The position numbers were made by a program, and so were the translations under genes. A stretch of 64,000 bases of DNA from Branchiostoma lanceolatum. Taxonomy: Eukaryota > Chordata > Leptocardii > Amphioxiformes > Branchiostomatidae. Positions 7,198 to 36,944 of this stretch are shown here, piece by piece. The stretch lies in NCBI RefSeq assembly GCF_035083965.1, contig NC_089724.1:3830001-3894000 (forward strand). The letters run 5' to 3'. Under the pieces are notes generated by a model, which saw nothing but the letters and a program-made list of their open reading frames with translations, did not search any database and was not told where the DNA came from. Positions within the stretch are counted from its first letter, which is position 1; the number at the start of each line of letters is the position of its first letter.

Positions 7198-7207
7198 GTA
7201 TTTTTTA

Positions 7208-7278
7208 GGTCCCACCGAGATTCGAACTCAGGTCTTTGGATTCAAAGTCCAACGTGTTCACCACTACACTATGGGACC
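7208..7278 (-). tRNA. tRNA-Gln (anticodon TTG)
   Basis: On the minus strand the 71-nt sequence folds as a full cloverleaf. The acceptor stem GGTCCCA/TGGGACC is perfect. The anticodon stem TTGGA/TCCAA encloses loop CTTTGAA with anticodon TTG, reading CAA (Gln). The T arm contains GTTCGAATC, the B box. The D arm contains GTGTAGTGGTGAACAC, the A box region. There is no intron and no encoded CCA. A T-run terminator follows. Stems are intact, so it is likely a functional gene and not a SINE head; no SINE body follows it. Confidence 0.93.
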
Positions 7279-23946: not shown

Positions 23947-26130
23947 TCACATGTATCTGTATTTCCTGATACAGTGGTCCCCAGGATCAGCTACGAACAC
24001 ATGTCCATCCTCTGTCACAGCCACCCCATATGGAATGTTTAGCTTGTCTCCATCACTGCTGATGGTGGACACCCAGGTACCGTCTAAGCGGAACACCTGA
24101 AGCTTCTTACCGTGTTCAATACCACCAATTGTACCCCCAATGTTTGCCAGAACTATGTTCCCCCTGCTGTCAGCTGACACCCCTATAGGGTTATACATGT
24201 CCTGTGGTTGTTGGCCCCACTTGCCGAACTTGTGATGAAAGTTCATATTCTTGTCAAACACCTGAACACGGTCATTGTCTTGATCTGACACAATGATGTT
24301 GTCCTTTGTATCCGCACAGACAAAATATGGCTGGTCGAACTGCCTCTCCCCTTGTCCCTTCCCTCCCACCTGTTTCACTAGATTACCATCTACCTCAAAC
24401 AGGAATATGACGTGTTTGTCAGGATCAGTTACAACAACCCTCCCATCCCTCTGTACTGCCAGGCCATAGGAGTTTGTGCAAAAGCCATCCACAGAAAATT
24501 TGTGCAAAAGTTCTCCTGATGGTGTAAACTTCTTGACTACATCCCCAGACAATATCACTGCGGTGCCATCCATATGAGCTGCAATTGATACAGGACCTGT
24601 AGCTGTTCCAAATGAGTAACAAAAGTTTCCTGTCAGATCAAACACCTGGATACGTGTGTTGCGAGTATCAGCTACATACAGCCGATCTCCACTGACTGCA
24701 AGATCAAAAGGTGTATTAAACTGCCCGTGTTGGCTTCCCTTGTGTCCGAACCTCAGTACAGGGTTGTTACTACCCACTTCTACAATGAGAGGGGAACACA
24801 GGCTAATCCCTCCTGTAACCCCAACCCCTTCCCCTGAAATTATACCAACCACATGCTCTCCTGATGCTTGTGGCCTCCAAACTGCTTTAAATGCCCCTCC
24901 ACTAGTTCTGGTAGTGTCTAATTTAGCACATTGCCCCCCAGGCGAGGTGACAGTGACTTGAGGATCGGTTTCCCATTCTTGGCCTTTCTGTGGTCTAAAG
25001 ATGACAATAGTTGGCAAACTTTCTACTGGGGCCTCTGCGAGGAACAAAGATTCATCGGACAGAAAAAGGTAACAGTCAACAAGATCAGTGCAGGCGTTAT
25101 CTGGTTGGAAGGATATATTATTCTTTAAAGCTTCATGGTGAACCTGGGTTGTGGAAAGAACATTTAGCCTATCTTCTAGCTGTTGCCTAAGTGTGAGAAT
25201 TTCTACATCATTACCTCTAGCTAGAATGTCTGTCGAGAACTTCAGTCCATCTTTGGTAGACTTGATGTTTTCTTCCAGCTCTTTCTCTTCCTTCTCGAGA
25301 GGCTCCTTCTGGGTCTTTTCCATCTTGTTTAGCTTCTCTGTGATCGTCTTCTCTTCCTTATCCAGTTTTGCTCTCATCTGTGCGAAATGTTCCTGTATTT
25401 CTTTTCTCCGTGTTTGACAGTTTGTTGTGATGCTTGCGAGTTCTTGGCTAACAGTTGCTTTAGCTTTCTTTAAAGCATCACCCGTGTCCTTGTTTTTTTT
25501 CACCAAGGTCTGTAGTTCAGCCTTGTACTTCTGTGCGATCTTACTGACCTCCTGTGGGTTGTGGTTTGGTCCAGGTCGGTGCTCGGTAATGGTGCAGTCT
25601 CGGCACACGAGCTTGGCGCAGGGTTGACAGTAGAAAGTCATGCGCTGGTCGGTGTGGCGAGGGCAGTACATGGCTCGGCTGTACTTTGGCCTGCTGCTGG
25701 GGTTCTTCAGATCATTTAGGGTGAAGATGTAATGATCCTTTAGAGCAGGAATACTACTGTGAGCAGTTATACAGTTCTTACACAGCAGGATACTACAGTC
25801 CGCACATCTTCCTTCTACCTTTGCATCAGACTTACACATCTGACACTGGGTGTGGTCTTCTTCGCTTTTATGTAGAACCCTGAAGTCCAGCAAGCTGTTG
25901 ATGTAGAAATTTGGCGACAGATTGCTGACACCTGTTCCCTGTAGTCTGACCTGGTGCCGACAGGTAGGACAGGTGAGCTGGCCCTTTTCCCTCCGCCATG
26001 TTTCCAGACACCTGGCACAGAAGGTGTGAAGACAGGGCAGGACGCGGGGGTCGTCATAGATCTCCTGGCAGACGGGACAAGTCAGGAACTTCTCGTCAAA
26101 CTCCTCTAGTGGGAGGCTAGCAGCAGCCAT
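23947..26130 (-). CDS. TRIM2/TRIM3-type RING E3 ligase with NHL repeats, 727 aa, intronless
   Basis: Predicted RING-type E3 ubiquitin ligase of the TRIM-NHL class. From the chosen Met: a C3HC4 RING at about residues 18-57 (CPVC, CLHTFCARC, CPTC), a B-box1-like zinc motif at 95-133, B-box2 at 156-191 (CPRHTDQRMTFYCQPC), a coiled coil at about 193-335 rich in Lys and Glu, a filamin/ABP280-like domain at about 369-452, and five or six NHL repeats at about 456-727 (for example FDLAVSGDRLYVADTRNTRI). This order is that of TRIM2, TRIM3 and TRIM71. The frame stays open 61 codons upstream to 26313, but MAAASLPLEEFDEKF at 26130 gives a normal TRIM N terminus. There are no introns, which suggests a retrocopy or a member of an expanded intronless lineage. 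The domain set is intact, so it is probably functional in the cytoplasm. Confidence 0.92.
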   Translation of the reverse strand: MAAASLPLEEFDEKFLTCPVCQEIYDDPRVLPCLHTFCARCLETWRREKGQLTCPTCRHQVRLQGTGVSNLSPNFYINSLLDFRVLHKSEEDHTQCQMCKSDAKVEGRCADCSILLCKNCITAHSSIPALKDHYIFTLNDLKNPSSRPKYSRAMYCPRHTDQRMTFYCQPCAKLVCRDCTITEHRPGPNHNPQEVSKIAQKYKAELQTLVKKNKDTGDALKKAKATVSQELASITTNCQTRRKEIQEHFAQMRAKLDKEEKTITEKLNKMEKTQKEPLEKEEKELEENIKSTKDGLKFSTDILARGNDVEILTLRQQLEDRLNVLSTTQVHHEALKNNISFQPDNACTDLVDCYLFLSDESLFLAEAPVESLPTIVIFRPQKGQEWETDPQVTVTSPGGQCAKLDTTRTSGGAFKAVWRPQASGEHVVGIISGEGVGVTGGISLCSPLIVEVGSNNPVLRFGHKGSQHGQFNTPFDLAVSGDRLYVADTRNTRIQVFDLTGNFCYSFGTATGPVSIAAHMDGTAVILSGDVVKKFTPSGELLHKFSVDGFCTNSYGLAVQRDGRVVVTDPDKHVIFLFEVDGNLVKQVGGKGQGERQFDQPYFVCADTKDNIIVSDQDNDRVQVFDKNMNFHHKFGKWGQQPQDMYNPIGVSADSRGNIVLANIGGTIGGIEHGKKLQVFRLDGTWVSTISSDGDKLNIPYGVAVTEDGHVFVADPGDHCIRKYRYM

Positions 26131-26313
26131 GATGTCGGTCTCGTACAACTGGAAAGGTTCTACGCTCAGCAGACGGCTAGTTATCACAAAGAGTGAAAGG
26201 AGGAACTTCGCATCGGGATCTGTTTTTTTACCATCACAGTCTAGACAGGGTGAGGTACTGACAGGTGTGCCATACTGATTGGTCCAGACGCCAAGCAAAC
26301 AATGGCCAAGCAA

Positions 26314-26966
26314 ACAATGGTTTTATTTCATGTATCATAACACGAGTCTTCTTATTGTACATACTAGCTCAAGCGTGAATGTCTAATGTCTGTTGTAATT
26401 TGTTCACTGTAGCATGCGATGTTTCAATATAGTAATTGCAATGGGTGGACTACAAATAAACTAAAAAGGGCCCCTTCAACCTGTAGCTTTTTTTCTATCG
26501 CAAGTCAGGGCTTCATGTGTGCTATCTCGACCTTCCGCACGACTGCAACCCTAGCAATAGCATACACATGATATGGGTTGAAAAATCCGGCTTCAACCTG
26601 GGATTACTATAACGTTACATTGTGTATTTTTCTGTACATTGTATGTGTATGAGATGGTAAGGATTCCTGGGCCTCTGATGGCGTTTTAACCATCCCACAA
26701 CCAGTCTGAGTTCCGTAACTATATTTCGAAATGATCACTGCGGATCTCGCTATCTCACAGATTCTTGTTTCCCAGCGACAGGTGCATATCGGGACCAAAC
26801 AGACAAGCAAAGACGCCCGGATTGACCCCTGACCGCCATTCTACACCATCGGTGTCCGTTTCTGTCAACCTTTCTGTCGGGGTCTCAACCCTGAGATATT
26901 TACAACGTTGTTTTAGAGGCTGACAAGCCAACATTTGTGCCCGGGACGATAACACGTCCTCTCGGC
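26314..26966. other. 5' flank of the TRIM gene; no gene recognised
   Basis: No TATA box or CpG island is obvious directly upstream of the TRIM ORF. Overlapping minus-strand ORFs at 26607-27224 have no motifs. Confidence 0.3.
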
Positions 26967-27033
26967 GTGTGCTTATATCTCGTGCCGCCCCACTGGGGGA
27001 CGGTGTTCGGTGGCCCCCGGCCGTGCCGTTCGC
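26967..27033 (+). repeat. Direct repeat A, left copy (67 bp)
   Basis: GTGTGCTTATATCTCGTGCC and the following GCCCC-CTGGG-GACGGTGTTCGGTG and CCGGCCGTGCCGTTCGC match 36205-36271 in the same orientation with few changes. Both copies lie outside the inverted arms at 27286 and 36104. Confidence 0.8.
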
Positions 27034-27285: not shown

Positions 27286-27765
27286 TACGGTGGCCCACGG
27301 GAACACGGCGTTTTTTTTTATATCTGGGTTTATTTTCAACTTTTTTTTCCTGCGTGAAAATTTTTCGCACTTTTTTTTGTTTTGCAAAAATTTTTTCTTC
27401 TTTTTTTTTGTGGGCATATAATGTACCCTCCCCGACAACGCACCGTCCCCAGGTCAAAGGTCGTGTGACGGGCGGACGTGTAATGGCGGCATATAGATAC
27501 CGACTGATGAATCGTAAGTTATTCAATATATCTCATAGAATTGCATTATCACACTCCAAATTCAACTTGTTCCGTATAATTATAAGCTCCAGATCGTTGG
27601 AAAATTATCATAACGTGATGTTTTGCTGTAAAACTTATTGGTAAAACGGTCATCATCTGTTCTCTCATTGGGGAGGGGGGCGTAGGGTTTTTGGAAAAAC
27701 TTTGCTGCTTTCTTCGTGTGAATTTAGGACCGATTGGCATTAATGATTAGTATACTTTTTTATGT
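27286..27765 (+). repeat. Inverted repeat B, left arm (~480 bp)
   Basis: Nearly identical in reverse orientation to 35617-36104. The outer end is TA|CGGTGGCCCAC and the inner end lies near AGTATACTTTTTTA. The left part is a run of T-rich blocks; the right part holds a first-exon-like ORF start. The two arms bound an 8.8 kb interval, as long terminal inverted repeats would. Alternatively they are two separate insertions of one ~480-bp element. Confidence 0.85.
27450..27513 (+). promoter_or_regulatory. Promoter/first-exon-like segment in left arm B
   Basis: GTAATGGCGGC at 27481 resembles a YY1 site overlapping a start codon, as in many animal CpG promoters. The reading MAAYRYRLMN is followed at 27514 by a perfect GTAAGT donor. 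If real, it would be the first exon of the integrase-like gene downstream. The same segment exists reversed in the right arm. This is an inference. Confidence 0.35.
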
Positions 27766-27884
27766 GAAATGTATACGTAGCGGTGCTGTAACCGTAAGTC
27801 AGTTGATTCCTATGGCCTCTGAGGAAACATGAATTCAAAGAAGTAACAGAAATCACACATACACAGCCTCAAAATGTCCTTAAT

Positions 27885-28010
27885 TTGACACGATGTCTTG
27901 GATATTCCTGTGTCTTGTATACATGCCATTTAACTTTAGGCTGTTTGTTATGGGAAAAAAGGGAAAGTAAAAGGTCTTTGAAGTTATACAGAAGAAGAAT
28001 ATGTTTCCAT
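27885..28010 (+). pseudogene. Possible N-terminal exon of the integrase-like gene
   Basis: The frame reads LGYS near its start and KRSLKLYRRR near its end. That spacing resembles the N-terminal HTH-like region of this integrase family as I know it (GYS..., then a basic LxRRR). Exon borders were not found with confidence, and the match is short. Confidence 0.3.
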
Positions 28011-31000
28011 GTTCAGTTCTTTATTCTCATGTTATTCTATGTATCACTGGTGTTACTTACTATAGCCTAGGTATTAAGTAGTCAATATTTTCATGGTTCA
28101 TATGGAAGAATGGCATAGTTTTTTACATAGATATGATATTATCATGGATTAACTTTACGGCTGATCATTTTCTCACACATTTCATGTATATTGTATGGCA
28201 CGTTTCTTTGGATGTGGCCATGCATCACTTATGTTTTCTATTAATAATTTTTGTTATCAGGAAGAACTCCAGGGCCCAAACCAAAACGTTGTCTATAGAA
28301 AGATGTGGCGCTGTCTTTTGCGGAAATATTGGCTTAATGTCAGAAGGTATTTGTATTTTTGATGTGTTTGAATTAAAACGATCTAGAAGTAGTGATACAT
28401 GTATTTGTTTTGTTTTTTTTCAATGTGAGAAGTATCATATTTAACCCTGTACCCTAAGTAGAAGTTTTCAGAACAAAGCTGTACTTAATTAACTTAGCCT
28501 TGGGCAGACAGCAACCATTTTGCACATATCCTTAATTTTCCCCTAATGTCCCTAACACATCAGGAGTACTGTGCAAAGGATTTTACAAGAAGAAGACCCA
28601 GAAGGCTCAGCTCAGAGACGACAACGACGTCTTATTCGGCGTGACTACTTTAGTCTGGTAGTACACACAATCTTTATTTTTGTTGCAGAGTAATTTTCTG
28701 ACATTTTCAAGATATACTTTTGAACGCTGTTATTGCACTGTGTGGCTCCAAAGTTACTTTGGTTGACATGTGTTTTTTTTCTTTTATTACATCTATTGGT
28801 TCTGTCCTAATAGCTAAGAATCAGGACTTGTCAGCTGTCATTATATGGGTCATTATGCTTGACATTTTCGTCACAGAAATTCTTTTTTTACCTGAATGTC
28901 TTGAGACTTACATGTCTCTTTTTTCATTAATGTTTCTTTAGTCTAGTAGGTTGTTTAACATTCTATGTTATGATATGTATAACCGTTACTTGCGTGTGTG
29001 TCTTTTTGCACATTTTACATACATCATGTAGCCTCTCTCCGTAGCTGATTCCCTTAGAACACTTCACTCTATTTGGCCGACGTATACTATTTTCCCAGCG
29101 ATCCATGCAGCTTGGCAGAGGCTACATTTTACCTACATCTCAGTGTTCTATTCATGTCAAAAGCTGAGATATATCACACTTATTGTGTGTTTGCACTATT
29201 GCTTCTCCTTCAATATACCCCTATGCTGTAGGTTGGTGAATATCAACTTCCTTGAAATGTTATCAGAAGTGACTGTCATATTGCATTTTCTTTGTCTAAT
29301 CCTAGCCTTTTGTCTTGTCCTTCAGGGGCCGAGTCAAGTCTGGCATATTGATGGGTGTGTATATGTGTACATTGTAAAATTGCATTCTGTGTATTACCAA
29401 TAACTAACCACTTTGAAACGATGATGTGGTAAAATAATTTTCTCTGTTACTGTATTTGCAGGAATGACAAGTTGAAACCGTATGGATTTTGTCTCCATGG
29501 CTGCATCGATGGGTAATGTACACACTATAGGTTATCTACTGCTTTATATAATTTTTGTCAGGTATTTGACACCTGGTTTCCATTCTTATCACAGGCGACC
29601 ATTCTCTAAACATGGTAATGTCAGAGACTTTAGAGACCAACCATATATCATTCTGTCTTGCACTTGAACATAATCTGTATATCATTGAGCTGTACAACCA
29701 ATCTAGATCTGTGGTGTAGAACTTGCATGCATAACGTTGACCTTGCTTGTTTCTTGACCTCCAGCACATTAAATTCGCTGTTTGACTAACCTATGTGTAT
29801 TGGTTTCACCGTTAGACTGAGTGGTAATTTGCAGCACTTAACGTTAACAATTGTCTTAGACATGATAGTCAAATGAAACTTTTATCATAATGACACTTGT
29901 CTTTTACATTGTAGTTATAGTAGACGTTGCATGTGGCTACATGTTGGCACAACAAATAAGGATGCTGCAGTAGTGGCCACACTCTACCTGAACACAGTCA
30001 ACCAGCTAGAAGGTACATTGACATAGTGTCAGTAGTTAAGACTTGAGTAGTCATATGTTCTACTGTCCATTATTGGCTGTCCGTCCACTCCGTGTCACAT
30101 GTACATGCGATTAGCCTACGGGCAGGAATTTGCCATAACTTTTCATTGATTGTCAGAATGATATTCTAAAATAGCTTATATAAGTTATACAGACATACAG
30201 CCTATTCAGTGGTCACTATATTGGATATGTGGCACATTAAACACTATTTCAGTATCATACAATTTTGGGGATAAGGTGCACTGGTACTTATTTCACAAAA
30301 AAATATTTGAGATGTACAGCATATAGTTGTCAGCAAAACCATATTTAGTATTACAAAATGCCTCTCTTATCATGATCAGCTAGAGCATAGCTGTTATCAA
30401 CTTAGATATCGTAAACAAATGTTTTATATTTTTCGGTCTGTATGCTAGTGTATAAAAGTGACTTAACAGTTTACATAGTATAGGTAAATATTTAGGTGCA
30501 CTGGTGCACCCACATTAAAAACAATTACTAGTAGGTGCATAGTAGCCATGGCTCCAATTTTGGGTTCACTTGCACCTTGTATTTAGAACCATTATCTGAA
30601 GATAAAGGACACTTATTTCCACATTCTTGCAGGTTGTCCACAACTTGTCCGATCCAGGCACAGAGAATGTGGTGGTGGCTGCAATGCAGTGTTCTTTTCA
30701 TTGCAACCATTAGTATGGCAAGTCTGTGCATAATCAGGTGCATTTCTTTGATTACATTTCATTGTGCAGTGTAAGACCCTATTATGAAGGTTCCTATCAG
30801 TTAGTGTGCCTCTGAGGCCTGTCTGTATTTCCATTTCCTTGATGTTCCTTGAAAGCAAGGTACAGATGCATCTTACAGCTTTATCATTATTGTGGTATAG
30901 CATCATCATACCATACCGGTAGCTAACAGTGCCAAAAAAGAGGCTTGGATTCATTCTGAAGATACAAAATGTATCAAACATTAACAAAATCAAACCATTT

Positions 31001-31299
31001 TATGCTTTATTACATTACTGCACTAATAAACAGATACTGTACTTGGGTAAAATACATGTTAATGGTGTGTTTTGTTTATCATTATAGCGTATTGAAGCCT
31101 TCTGGTCTCACCTGAGGCCCACAGTGGTGTGGTGGATTGGGGTTTTCCAGGTAAAGATGCTCATGGAACTGAACAAAATTGAACATTTTAGTTTTCTTAT
31201 TAAGAGAAAGTATAGATTCTTCTCAATTTGTAGGTGTGATACAATAAGAGTAACATAAATAAAACAAGAGTTGGTAGACCTCAAATCTCCATGAAATAT

Positions 31300-31830
31300 A
31301 TATTATGCAAATTAGGCCCACAGTTATATAATCTATATTCAACTATGGTCATTGTCACATAACTTCCAAATGCCATCAGTATGAAATTCCAGTTACTGCA
31401 TCTACCAATGTGGAATTACTGTATTTTCTCATTAATTATGCAAATAGGGTCTTCATTTGCATAACTTTTATCTGCCAATGTCCCTTTATTTCTCAGTTAC
31501 ATACTGTATGTTGCATTTTTGAACTGTCCTACCATTGAACAGAGTGGATTTATAAAATGCCTTCATTAATTATGCAATATGCAAATTAGATTCTGATTTG
31601 CATTATCGTCATTTCATTATATCAAGTAACACTTAAGCTATCCACATATCAAAAAGAAGTATAAAGGTTTGGTTGTATATCCCTCTGTGGTTTCACAACC
31701 AGCTGTCGAGCCCCTCGGGAAGTGACCCAGTTTCGCTATAACAGGTGTCCCACAACTTGCAATGGACAACACTGCAAATATAGATTTTCCTCATTACTTA
31801 TGCAAATCAAGTTCAATTTGCATATTTTGC
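31300..31830. repeat. Cluster of seven ATGCAAAT octamers in an integrase intron
   Basis: ATGCAAAT occurs at 31305, 31438, 31579 and 31800; its reverse complement ATTTGCAT occurs at 31455, 31596 and 31816. The spacing suggests three diverged direct copies of a TATGCAAAT..ATTTGCAT module. The octamer is the POU/Oct consensus, but a degenerate repeat family is the simpler reading. Confidence 0.6.
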
Positions 31831-31899
31831 AATTCATTGTGTACATCTGTCTAAGCTACCTGCATAGTAAATGATATGAAAATCTGTTTCTTCAGTTAT

Positions 31900-32115
31900 T
31901 CTCCTTAAAGGGTTTTGACAAATATGCCATTGTTGTTCCAGTGACACATATCAGGAGGCCCAAAATCGACCTTGACCTTTCTCCTCCCAACACCTACCCA
32001 CATACCAAATATCATTACAATCCATGTAGACGTTCTTCAGTTATGCTGACTTTAAGCATCCGAAGGCACAAACATACACACACGCAAACACACGCAAACA
32101 CGCAAAACAATATCA
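31900..32115 (+). mobile_element. Probable dispersed repeat ending in a CA-rich tail
   Basis: CCTACCCACATACCAAATAT followed by CATTACAATCCATGTAGACG, TTCTTCAGTTATGC and then ACACAAA-rich sequence resembles a repeat consensus common in invertebrate genomes. It lies inside an intron of the integrase-like gene. The family is not named with confidence. Confidence 0.4.
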
Positions 32116-33641
32116 CCATGAAGAAGTCTTTTTTCATGGAGATAATGATATTAATACAATCTGTACAGTTACTAACTTCATTTCTCTTTCTTTTATTAAT
32201 GATATTGTGGTCCATTATCTGTATGTGTTTGGTGAATCATCAAAATTTTTCACGATGATGAGAGTATAACCTACATGTATATGTGGGATTTAGTCTCTTT
32301 TTAAACCAAGACTATTGTAACAGTGGTTTACTTTTTAGGAAATGGCAGCTCATGGAGACCTTGAAGTAGGGAACTTTCTACACAAGTAAGTGCTTTATGG
32401 TATAGTGTGATACATATTCCACCCACCTTGTGTTTTTGATCCAAATTTACTGTGGCATACTAAATGCTACTTTGAGGAACCCCTGCCTCTTAAACTTAAA
32501 GTGTCCATGGCTTTACATGTTACTTTGTTTTGCTATGATATGGCAGGAGCCTTGACATGTTATTTTGTTCATAATTGTTAGTACTATATTTAGATATTTA
32601 GTACTAACATATTATGATCAGATATTGCTCAAGTACAATACAATATAATTTGTTTTCTTATTTTACAAAAATTGAAAAGCAGAAGTTGTACTGGTTGCAA
32701 GAATAGTAGTTATGACTGTTTTTCATATACTATTGTATCATAACGATGACTTTTGCTTTACTTGACTCTTTGAATGTACAGAGGAATCCTACGTTTCTGC
32801 TTTATGCCGATCATCAGACAACAACTCCTGGAGTTCATGGAGGACTGGAATGACAGAAGAATTCGTCCGCATCGAGGGGCAACAGTTCCAGGTGGACGAC
32901 CAAACGTGTTGTTCTTCCTGCCAGAGCGAACAGGTATACACAAGCAAAAATATGAACTCTGGAAATGTCATCTGTACCAAAGGCCCGGCTTACACGTGCA
33001 TTTTCCAAGTACACTTAGAGCACACTCAGCCCAAGTCCTGTGACTGTGTAAATAGAAATCTGTCATTTTTGACTTTGTAAACAGAAATCTGGGTATTCAA
33101 GTCCCCTTTTCCCAGACAAGACTTGATCACGGTCGAGACCATGCTCAAGACGCCCAGCAGGGGGGCAAGACAGACACCTCTATTTAAAAGCATGATTACA
33201 CAACTACAATTATTGTTCCTCAAGCTACTGATGAGCTGCAGTACTATTTGTTTGCCCCCAGTTCCTCTGAAGGTAATTGGCCTCGCATGATTGGTAAAGT
33301 AATGTCTTAGATGAAGATGTGTTTGTTTTTTCTATGTCTTCTAAATGTCCATGTACCAATCATAGCTGTTTGGCGACACAATGTGTATTTGTTGCAGACT
33401 GTGTACCATGTATTCATTTTCTGTTCTCTTTGAACGTGACAGGTGGAGATAACTTCCTGAACCACCTGTCCCAGCATGACAGACAGCAGGCACAACATTA
33501 TTGCAAACCTCCAGGCAGTGATGTGGGGAATGAGCCCCTCAACAGGTATCTGGAAGAGATGATGGCGAACATGCAGAGGCGGGTACCAGACACTTGGCAG
33601 GAGGCTGCACAATTGTATATAGACCTTGTATATATTGCAAG

Positions 33642-33684
33642 TGACCCTTAGATAAAATTGGCTAATAGTCAATTTTAAGGGTCA
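33642..33684. other. Hairpin spanning the integrase stop codon
   Basis: TGACCCTT (33642-33649) and TAAAATTG pair with CAATTTTA and AAGGGTCA (33677-33684) around a short loop, giving about 16 base pairs with a small bulge. The stop codon TAG at 33649-33651 lies within it. It abuts the next hairpin directly. Confidence 0.65.
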
Positions 33685-33755
33685 GTACAAGAGGGGTTAT
33701 CAGAAATACATGTATATAGTATATACATTGTATCTCTGATAACCCCCCTTGTACT
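33684..33755. other. 72-nt perfect-stem hairpin downstream of the integrase gene
   Basis: AGTACAAGAGGGGTTATCAG at the left pairs with CTGATAACCCCCCTTGTACT at the right, and the stem continues inward through AATACATGTATATA-type sequence. The stem is about 30 bp with one or two mismatches. It could be a very short MITE or a small-RNA hairpin in a 3' UTR; the sequence alone does not decide. Confidence 0.6.
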
Positions 33756-35616
33756 AACGACTGAGAATTATGATTGAATAACAGTAGCTGCAATTCTTCT
33801 TGCATTGAAACTTTGCTGGCACTTAGGCCACACCAATTTAACACATTGTTTCTTGGGTCACCTGCTTCCTTTGTTGTTTATTAACTATTTGATAAAAAAA
33901 TATTTTTCAACCCCAAAATGCTCCTATTTTGGCACCGTCCATTGAAGAAAGTCTTGTCTTCCTAGTTGTTACTGTTCTTTCACTTTTGAATGCAATGATT
34001 TGATTGAAAGTTCAAATTTCATTGTCTTCATCCTAACACAAAGAGGTTGGAGCCTATGTTGTTGGGACTACCAAACTTTCAGCACATTGCCCTTTTTCTT
34101 GTCAATGACCTCATAATAATATAATTGCTGCTGCAGACACCTGAGCCTTTGGTCTCAAGACTCTAACAGTCAGTCAACATTGTAAGGAGGGAAGACTTTG
34201 TAAATTTGAAACATGTACAGTCAGTAATATTGTAATCATGTCTACGTGATGAAGGCTTTGTTGGTGTATTACTTCATAACATTTCTTGCCAGTCGCTCAT
34301 GGTACAACTCAATTCATTGCATGTTTTAAATTCACTGCATGTGGGTTTTCTTTGCAACAAGCCTAAGTGTGGAATGATAGAAGAAAACCAGGACATGGTG
34401 TATCAGCTGATTGTACGAATGTAGGTTATTTCATGTACACTGTTCCCTTAGAACCTACTTATACCATTAATGAACTAATAACTAACACCAGCTATTATGG
34501 TATGCTACACCAAGCAAAACACCACTCCTAAGTAGCCAGCAAGGGGAGAGGAAAGGATTGTTGTGTATTAGTATGTCAATAATAGGGATTGGTGAAAAAA
34601 ATTTAATTACGTGTACTACATAAAGTATGTCGTAAGAAAACTACCACGTACTATGTTGCCTGATGGAACCACTGTATTAATGCAGCCTGCCCGAATTATA
34701 ACTGGTTAATTCAGAATAGCCAAAGCATCCTGTCTACATTGTCAAATTTGAATTATATTTTATTATTAATTTGTGTCTAGCAGAACGGCTGCACCATACA
34801 TGTAAATTAGGTGTTAGTTAACCTTTTTATTTTGACAGCTGCACTAAATATGTTGGATCATACTAATGGCACTACAGAAACAATAAATGATTGCCGAACA
34901 CATGTGCTGTTTGGAGTCTTGATATTTTTATGTTCATTGCTTTTAGGAAACATGATATTTTGTTGAGGCTATGCAACATCCTAATTCCACCATGTCCACG
35001 GTGCTAATTCAAAGGAGGGGGGCAGGTTGTGTTGAAGGGGAGAATCTTAAATCATAAATCTTTTTTTCCTTCTAAGTTATACAGTAGTTTACATCAAAAT
35101 AAGGCTCGAAAAGAGGTGAAACAAAATGCTTCCCCTCAAGTGCCAGAAATATCGTCTAGGAGTATGAATCTAGACGCACTGCTGTGGTTTTTCACGCCTT
35201 GGGTACTCCAAGTGCAGTTTATTTACACGATGCCAAGTTGGCCTTCTGTACCTGACCTCTAGACACAGTTCAGAACCCTGGCTAGCTCGCTTTAACAGTC
35301 TAATAAGAAAACATGACCACATTGACGTGCTGCATAACACATATACAATGACCAATATTGAACCTTTAATATTCATGATAAGCTCAAATCAGCCTGCAGG
35401 CCACTTTTCCTTGATCAAACACGCCAGGCTCAAAGTGTCAAGGATATCAATTTACTATGGCTGACTGGTACCGGTGTGACGAGCCTGGGTGCATGTGTGG
35501 AGATTATCTTGGGGTGGCTGGAATCTCTTCAGGGCTGAAGGAGCTCTCCACCCCTCAATTATAGCTCCCCATAGGAGTTTTGCCAGGACTTTTCTATCGC
35601 CAACCTAAGATAAAAG
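33756..35616. other. 3' flank of the integrase-like gene; no other gene seen
   Basis: AATAAA near 34880 followed by a TGTGCTGTTTG region is a candidate 3' end for the integrase transcript, but it is 1.2 kb from the stop. The segment at about 35384-35410 (AGCCTGCAGGCCACTTTTCC) recurs at 61300 as GGCCTGCAGGCCGCTTTTCA. No exon was recognised. Confidence 0.3.
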
Positions 35617-36104
35617 TTTAAAAAAGTATACTAATCATTAATGACAATCGGTCCTAAATTCACACGAAGAAAGCAGCAAAGTTTTTCCAAAAACCCAACG
35701 CCCCCCTCCCCAATGAGAGAACAGATGATGACCGTTTACCAATAAGTTTTACAGCAAAACATCACGTTATGATAATTTTCCAACGATCTGGAGCTCATAA
35801 TTATACGGAACAAGTTGAATTTGGAGTGTGATAATGCAATTCTATGAGATATATTGAATAACTTACGATTCATCATGAGTCGGTATCTATATGCCGCCAT
35901 TACACGTCCGCCCGTCACACGACCTTTGACCTGGGGACGGTGCGTTACGTTGTCGGGGAGGGTACATTATATGCCCACAAAAAAAAAGAAGAAAAAATTT
36001 TTGCAAAACAAAAAAAAGTGCGAAAAATTTTCACGCAGGAAAAAAAAGTTGAAAATAAACCCAGATATAAAAAAAAACCCGCCGTGTTCCTGTGGGCCAC
36101 CGTA
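35617..36104 (-). repeat. Inverted repeat B, right arm (~488 bp)
   Basis: Reverse-complement partner of 27286-27765. Its outer end reads GTGGGCCACCG|TA. The minus-strand reading MAAYRYRLMMNRKLFNIS keeps the ORF open to a stop at 35736, as in the left arm, with one extra codon. The A-rich blocks correspond to T-rich blocks in the left arm. Confidence 0.85.
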
Positions 36105-36204: not shown

Positions 36205-36271
36205 GTGTGCCTATCTCTCCTGCCGCCCCGCTGGGTGACGGTGTTCGGTGCCTCCCGGCCGTGCCGTTCGC
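36205..36271 (+). repeat. Direct repeat A, right copy
   Basis: Same orientation as 26967-27033. It is followed by a CpG-rich region to about 36500 that has no counterpart next to the left copy. Confidence 0.8.
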
Positions 36272-36540: not shown

Positions 36541-36751
36541 CGCAGAACAAAGACGCGCCGTGTTGGTGTTCTGCTGTAAGGAGGGGTGAGGGGAAGGGGG
36601 CTTGGCGGGATTTGTATTACTTTGTGCGAATGTGAGGGACGGATTAGTGTATAGAGACATGGCAGGAGGATTATGGAATGACAAATGTCATAAGGACAGA
36701 TGGAACGCAAGATACAGTACAATCTGAGTGACTAAGGAAAATAAGTTTTCA

Positions 36752-36944
36752 CTCTACTCTACTCTACTCTACTCTACTCTACTCTACTCTACTCTACTCT
36801 ACTCTACTCTACTCTACTCTCCTCTCCTCTCCTCTCCTCTCCTCTCCTCTCCTCTACTCTACTCTACTCTACTCTACTCTACTCTACTCTACTCTACTCT
36901 ACTCTACTCTACTCTACCATACTCTACTCTACTCTACTCTACTC
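36752..36944 (+). repeat. (ACTCT)n pentanucleotide microsatellite with (CTCCT)n core
   Basis: Nearly 190 bp of ACTCT repeats, with a central block of CTCCT variants at about 36819-36852 and one ACCAT interruption. The Leu/Tyr/Ser-rich ORF is a product of the repeat. Confidence 0.97.

Follow-up and report, generated by a model that had tools for sequence, protein, structure and literature searches.

What is the unit that occupies positions 27286 to 36104 of the Branchiostoma lanceolatum DNA analysed here (a 64-kb stretch of contig NC_089724.1, hereafter the window), in which two long inverted repeats enclose an intron-rich integrase-type gene? An earlier note, written from the letters of this DNA, found that the unit matched no element class that could be named with certainty and put it forward as a candidate undescribed system. 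We arrive at a different assessment. The TACGG..CCGTA ends together with an integrase-type transposase make an IS3EU/GingerRoot-like reading the best one, and, judging from sequence, we put at roughly 0.83 the probability that, among cut-and-paste DNA transposons, the element belongs to the IS3EU/GingerRoot kind or to its nearest sister, that is, to a recognisable, minor transposon class. We label it IS3EU-like rather than a proven member because no 6-bp target duplication was found at its borders and the class was judged from the ends and from domain matches.

Long inverted arms at the borders of the element

The arms that bound the unit are the following.

27286..27762, plus strand: left terminal inverted repeat (TIR), 477 bp, outer end TACGGTGGCCCAC; 97% identical to the inverted right arm, its end being the published IS3EU signature
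35619..36104, minus strand: right TIR, 486 bp, with the same end as the left arm, inverted

In a similarity search within the window, 472 of the 487 columns in the alignment of the two arms are identical and 11 are gap columns (E 0.0), which confirms the original description of near-identical inverted arms of ~480 bp on either side of the unit. The MAFFT alignment of the pair contains four substitutions among 476 aligned bases and four gap events, of 2, 5, 3, and 1 bases. This likeness is not a matter of chance. Further arm copies of significant similarity are absent from the 64-kb window (at E ≤ 0.1, each arm gives one 25-bp match with 84% identity, E 0.09). The 13-bp end occurs in exact form only at the two element borders; with up to three mismatches, there are 15 matches compared to the 10.9 expected, and 17 of 100 shuffles also gave at least 15. 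The GC content of the element (37.6%) is low relative to the adjoining 10 kb on the left (44.1%) and on the right (45.4%), as expected of inserted DNA.

The same arrangement could result if a 480-bp repeat had inserted twice, independently and in opposite orientations, around an unrelated integrase gene (the fallback explanation of the earlier note), and the ends are indeed not tied together by any 6-bp target duplication. However, neither arm contains a terminal inverted repeat of its own (exact seeds of 6-8 bp, first versus last 60 bp), the signature is found on the outer end only, and both arms face outwards. Moreover, the arm includes a candidate first exon and a splice donor in the orientation of the gene, although the phase misfits exon 2. 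We therefore consider this scenario very unlikely; the evidence instead supports a DNA-transposon-like unit with long TIRs and a multi-exon integrase-type gene inside, as originally proposed.

Outer ends and target site

The element starts with TACGG at 27286 and ends with CCGTA at 36104, so the outer-end sequences given previously are present. According to Kojima and Bao (PMC10045372), the termini of complete IS3EU families are invariably TA..TA, and their target duplications are usually 6 bp long; in the rust-fungus IS3EU families, the termini are TAYGG..CCRTA (2025 fungal transposon paper, PMC12730594). The ends of the amphioxus element conform to both forms of the termini, and TIRs, too, are a feature that it has in common with IS3EU/GingerRoot elements. 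Because the published termini take the form TA..TA or, in fungi, TAYGG..CCRTA, the TA is most likely the terminus of the element itself rather than a duplicated target. The unit had been described as TA-targeting, a view that loses its support once TA..TA is recognised as the IS3EU terminal signature.

No 6-bp target duplication is present outside the TA: the left flank, TTGTAG, and the right flank, GGTTTC, are equal at one of six positions, an observation on one copy that speaks for the locus and not for the family. When the TA is counted inside the element, there is no exact flank duplication at any length from 2 to 10 bp; when it is counted outside, TA is the sole exact duplication among the lengths tested. 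By eye, an uneven 3-bp reading is possible as well, with TAG before TACGG and TAG after CCG.

The duplication of TA outside the element is what would be seen if the transposon were of some other or unnamed class, one that targets and duplicates TA and ends in CGGTGG..CCACCG, which is how the locus was originally read. Against this, a match of 2 bp arises at a given place about once in 16 cases and carries little weight, and the known terminus of IS3EU consists of TA followed by CGG. As to Tc1/mariner-like elements, there is a TA at both borders, but the gene is of the integrase-core type, and the protein pieces that were searched show no match to a Tc1/mariner-type Pfam domain. We regard a TA-duplicating class as unlikely and retain the IS3EU-like reading.

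That reading leaves the flanks to be accounted for. The lack of a 6-bp duplication is odd for a young-looking copy: arms that differ at just 4 of 476 bases, provided that they are as old as the insertion, would lead one to expect a duplication that can still be recognised, and the mismatched flanks count against the IS3EU assignment. Three explanations can be given: later homogenisation of the arms, a joining of the ends through recombination or a misjoin of haplotypes, and an insertion that made no duplication. A rearranged transposon copy, in which recombination between two copies or a haplotype misjoin in the assembly brought together ends of separate insertions, is a serious possibility to which we assign somewhat less than even odds; it would refine, not replace, the best explanation. 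Rearrangement would account for the missing duplication between arms so similar, and a 67-bp direct repeat is found on both flanks, but this repeat stops short of the element borders, and the window contains no second arm copy.

An integrase-type gene, broken in this copy

We placed 11 candidate exons manually on the basis of the reading frames. GT-AG borders were chosen for all 10 introns, so that the splice sites provide no independent test of the model.

27483..27513, plus strand: putative exon 1, located in the left arm; an ATG and ten codons ahead of a GTAAGT donor, with a phase that misfits exon 2
28261..28346, plus strand: exon 2; together with exon 3, a weak HTH_21 match that stays below cut-off (E 0.005); frame not continuous with that of exon 1
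28564..28657, plus strand: exon 3, hand-placed
29326..29354, plus strand: exon 4, with the presumed first catalytic Asp (WHIDG)
29462..29512, plus strand: exon 5, hand-placed
29915..30012, plus strand: exon 6, hand-placed
30633..30737, plus strand: exon 7, with the presumed second catalytic Asp (DPGTEN); frameshift and stop in the frame of the motif
31088..31150, plus strand: exon 8; the presumed catalytic Glu belongs to NQRIE, a motif that runs across the exon 7/8 join
32339..32385, plus strand: exon 9, hand-placed
32782..32933, plus strand: exon 10, hand-placed
33443..33651, plus strand: exon 11, including the stop codon

The protein assembled from exons 3-11, with X at the broken places, matches Pfam PF24764 (rva_4, 'Integrase core domain') with E 9.1e-34 and 117 bits, the cut-off being 26, whereas the match of the same protein to the classic rve domain (E 0.003) stays below the cut-off of that family. 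The presence of an integrase-type gene with many candidate exons in the unit is confirmed, with the correction that the left arm contains putative exon 1. The HTH_21 match was obtained with the protein piece that includes exon 2. Matches to the NCBIfam models of IS3 (E 0.0039) and IS481 (E 0.016) are both far below cut-off, for a protein with an incomplete N-terminus. In Pfam searches of the protein pieces at E ≤ 1, there was no match to an H2C2 zinc finger, OTU, or Ulp1 domain, and the protein had 0 matches to solved structures (PDB) at the same threshold.

By the pattern of the family, the catalytic residues are presumed to be the Asp in WHIDG, the Asp in DPGTEN, and the Glu in NQRIE. Acidic residues can be placed as D-60-D-30-E, a spacing that includes the placeholder X's at the broken places. 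In IS3-type cores, the usual D-E spacing is ~35, and the shorter distance of 30 is a point against the IS3EU reading.

In the homology frame, nine of the 11 exons, namely 2-6 and 8-11, contain no stop. The chance that random intron stretches with the lengths of exons 3-6 and 8-11 (743 nt) are jointly stop-free is ~3e-6, a figure that serves as a sanity check only, given that the exons had been chosen by frame. Nevertheless, the transposase gene of this copy is broken. Exon 7, which encodes the second Asp motif, contains a frameshift plus a stop, and when the gene is read straight through, exons 7, 8, 9, 10, and 11 contain 1, 1, 1, 1, and 5 stops, respectively. Assembly error may conceivably be responsible for the lesions. 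In addition, the phase of putative exon 1 does not match the exon 2 frame from which the HTH_21 similarity derives. Open AG..GT candidates for a missing exon between exons 1 and 2 do exist, but among the 15 longest, none appears by eye to encode an N-terminal helix-turn-helix. Translation of exon 2 in another frame, which has stops, was dropped once the first frame proved to match HTH_21.

The many introns might suggest a domesticated host gene that lies between the repeats by chance. Such a gene, however, would hardly carry a frameshift and a stop within its catalytic core, in exon 7, nor exons 1 and 2 that cannot be joined in frame, and the matching transposon ends speak against it as well; among the alternatives, we give this one the least credence. 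Under the preferred IS3EU-like reading, the intron-containing DDE transposase would bind the TIRs, cleave at the outer TACGG termini, and insert the unit at another place. Since this copy is unable to make a full transposase, any recent movement would have required an intact copy at a different locus, acting in trans.

A putative first exon within the arms

Apart from putative exon 1 itself, two features of the arms bear on the start of the gene.

35867..35900, minus strand: right-arm mirror copy of putative exon 1; the donor is the same, and the copies differ by 3 bp, in frame
27415..27421, plus strand: TATA-box-like CATATAA, a possible promoter that each arm carries ~60 bp 5' of its exon-1 ATG; identified by eye

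The ATG of putative exon 1 is located 197 bp in from the end of the left arm. If exon 1 is real, the left arm would comprise the promoter and the first exon, and would supply both to the transposase gene besides serving as a terminus. The right arm has no obvious need of a promoter or exon 1 and, on the same premise, probably gained them by copying from the left end. It is unusual that ~480-bp arms hold a putative promoter and a putative first coding exon, such that exon 1 is present at both ends. The length of the arms is also an argument against the IS3EU reading: the TIRs of GingerRoot are reportedly 100-150 bp, compared to ~480 bp here.

One might go further and envisage an IS3EU-related lineage in which the TIRs have grown to ~480 bp, each with a promoter and the first coding exon, so that a spliced transcript could be started from either end, and in which insertion is possible without a 6-bp duplication. 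We put this forward as a speculative and rather improbable extension of the main reading. As a structural detail of modest weight, the long arms with their putative exon hint at a way in which the inverted repeats of a transposon might be lengthened, by copying of its 5' end to its 3' end.

Comparison with known transposons

The element is most likely a further member of a wider kind, the TIR transposons with an IS3/integrase-type transposase. Within this kind, IS3EU, a superfamily in Repbase, and GingerRoot form one lineage with 99% bootstrap support (Kojima and Bao 2023, PMC10045372). The likeness to IS3EU consists in the TA..TA (fungal TAYGG..CCRTA) termini and the TIRs (PMC10045372, PMC12730594). 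The IS3EU transposase is described as an IS3/IS481-like DDE enzyme without HHCC (PMC10045372), and the lack of a zinc-finger match in the protein pieces searched here is in line with this, while their HTH_21, IS3, and IS481 matches all remain below cut-off. The amphioxus element differs from IS3EU in the lack of a 6-bp target duplication and in the ~480-bp TIRs with putative exon 1. The fungal TET-bearing IS3EU elements carry TET/JBP and alpha-kinase genes (PMC12730594), none of which was recognised here in the frames scanned. GingerRoot, with 6-bp duplications and mostly TA..TA termini, is said to occur also in animals (PMC10045372) and has the TA..TA termini in common with the present element.

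Ginger1 and Ginger2, both from Branchiostoma floridae (Bao et al. 2010, PMC2836005), resemble the element in their integrase-like transposase and TIRs (~40-270 bp or 50-180 bp), and some Ginger1 genes also have introns, from 1 to 4 (PMC2836005). Ginger1 is characterised by TGTNR ends, 4-bp CCGG/CCGT duplications, an H2C2 zinc finger, and, mostly, OTU/Ulp1 domains, and Ginger2 by 4- or 5-bp duplications (PMC2836005, PMC10045372). In contrast, the element analysed here has TACGG ends, no 4-bp duplication, and no zinc-finger, OTU, or Ulp1 match. The distinction from Ginger that had been drawn at the outset is, then, borne out by the ends, duplications, and domains as published. IS481EU of parabasalids shares an IS481-like DDE transposase and TIRs with the element but is set apart by TNT..AYA ends, duplications of ~4, 15, or 25 bp, and TIRs that are mostly <50 bp (PMC10045372).

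Searches for relatives with six peptide patterns gave no match among viral contigs. The degenerate pattern DKLKP[YF]GF hit 4 viral and 88 prokaryote stretches; tblastn over all 92 of these yielded 7 rows at E ≤ 1, the best with E 0.007 over 25 residues, and no credible relative. The lack of a relative in these collections counts against the IS3EU reading. No paper linking IS3EU with amphioxus was found in the paper library searched; a lancelet IS3EU entry may well exist in Repbase. In the matching passages of PMC9587614, a paper that mentions both IS3EU and Branchiostoma, IS3EU appears only in a superfamily list and lancelets only as KolobokP hosts.

Remaining interior and surroundings of the element

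Between the gene and the right arm, one further region was delimited.

33652..35618, no strand assigned: region between the gene and the right arm, ~2 kb, with no recognised gene

A Pfam scan of 19 distinct reading frames, selected from 181 and partly outside these ~2 kb, gave no match above a curated cut-off (best E 0.026). Minus-strand frames, which might represent a second gene read from the right arm, were included in the scan, and their best match (E 0.07) is below the cut-off, so this candidate was rejected. In Polinton/Maverick elements, the integrase is accompanied by genes for DNA polymerase B, protease, and capsid; no match to any of these was detected among the same 19 of 181 frames.

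A hairpin with two 30-nt arms, 90% complementary, is located at 33681-33758, just 3' of the transposase stop codon, and may be either a small insertion or a signal that ends the transcript. Motifs of the ATTATGCAAAT type are repeated at 31302-31837, in the intron 3' of exon 8, and perhaps represent a nested repeat.

Outside the element, the two copies of the 67-bp direct repeat (26967-27033 and 36205-36271, one on either flank) are 90% identical and do not touch the borders. At gathering scores, the only Rfam match in the window is the tRNA at 7207, a tRNA-Gln with the anticodon TTG (7207-7278, minus strand). A tandem repeat at 840-1286 is apparent as a repetitive reading frame, and an ACTCT satellite with 38.8 copies and 96% matches occupies 36751-36944. 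A TRIM-type gene (23950-26322, minus strand) takes the form of one uninterrupted frame of 791 aa, in which RING, B-box, and NHL domains were matched; the frame is open to 26322, ~1 kb from the left end of the element, which thus lies on the 5' side of this gene.
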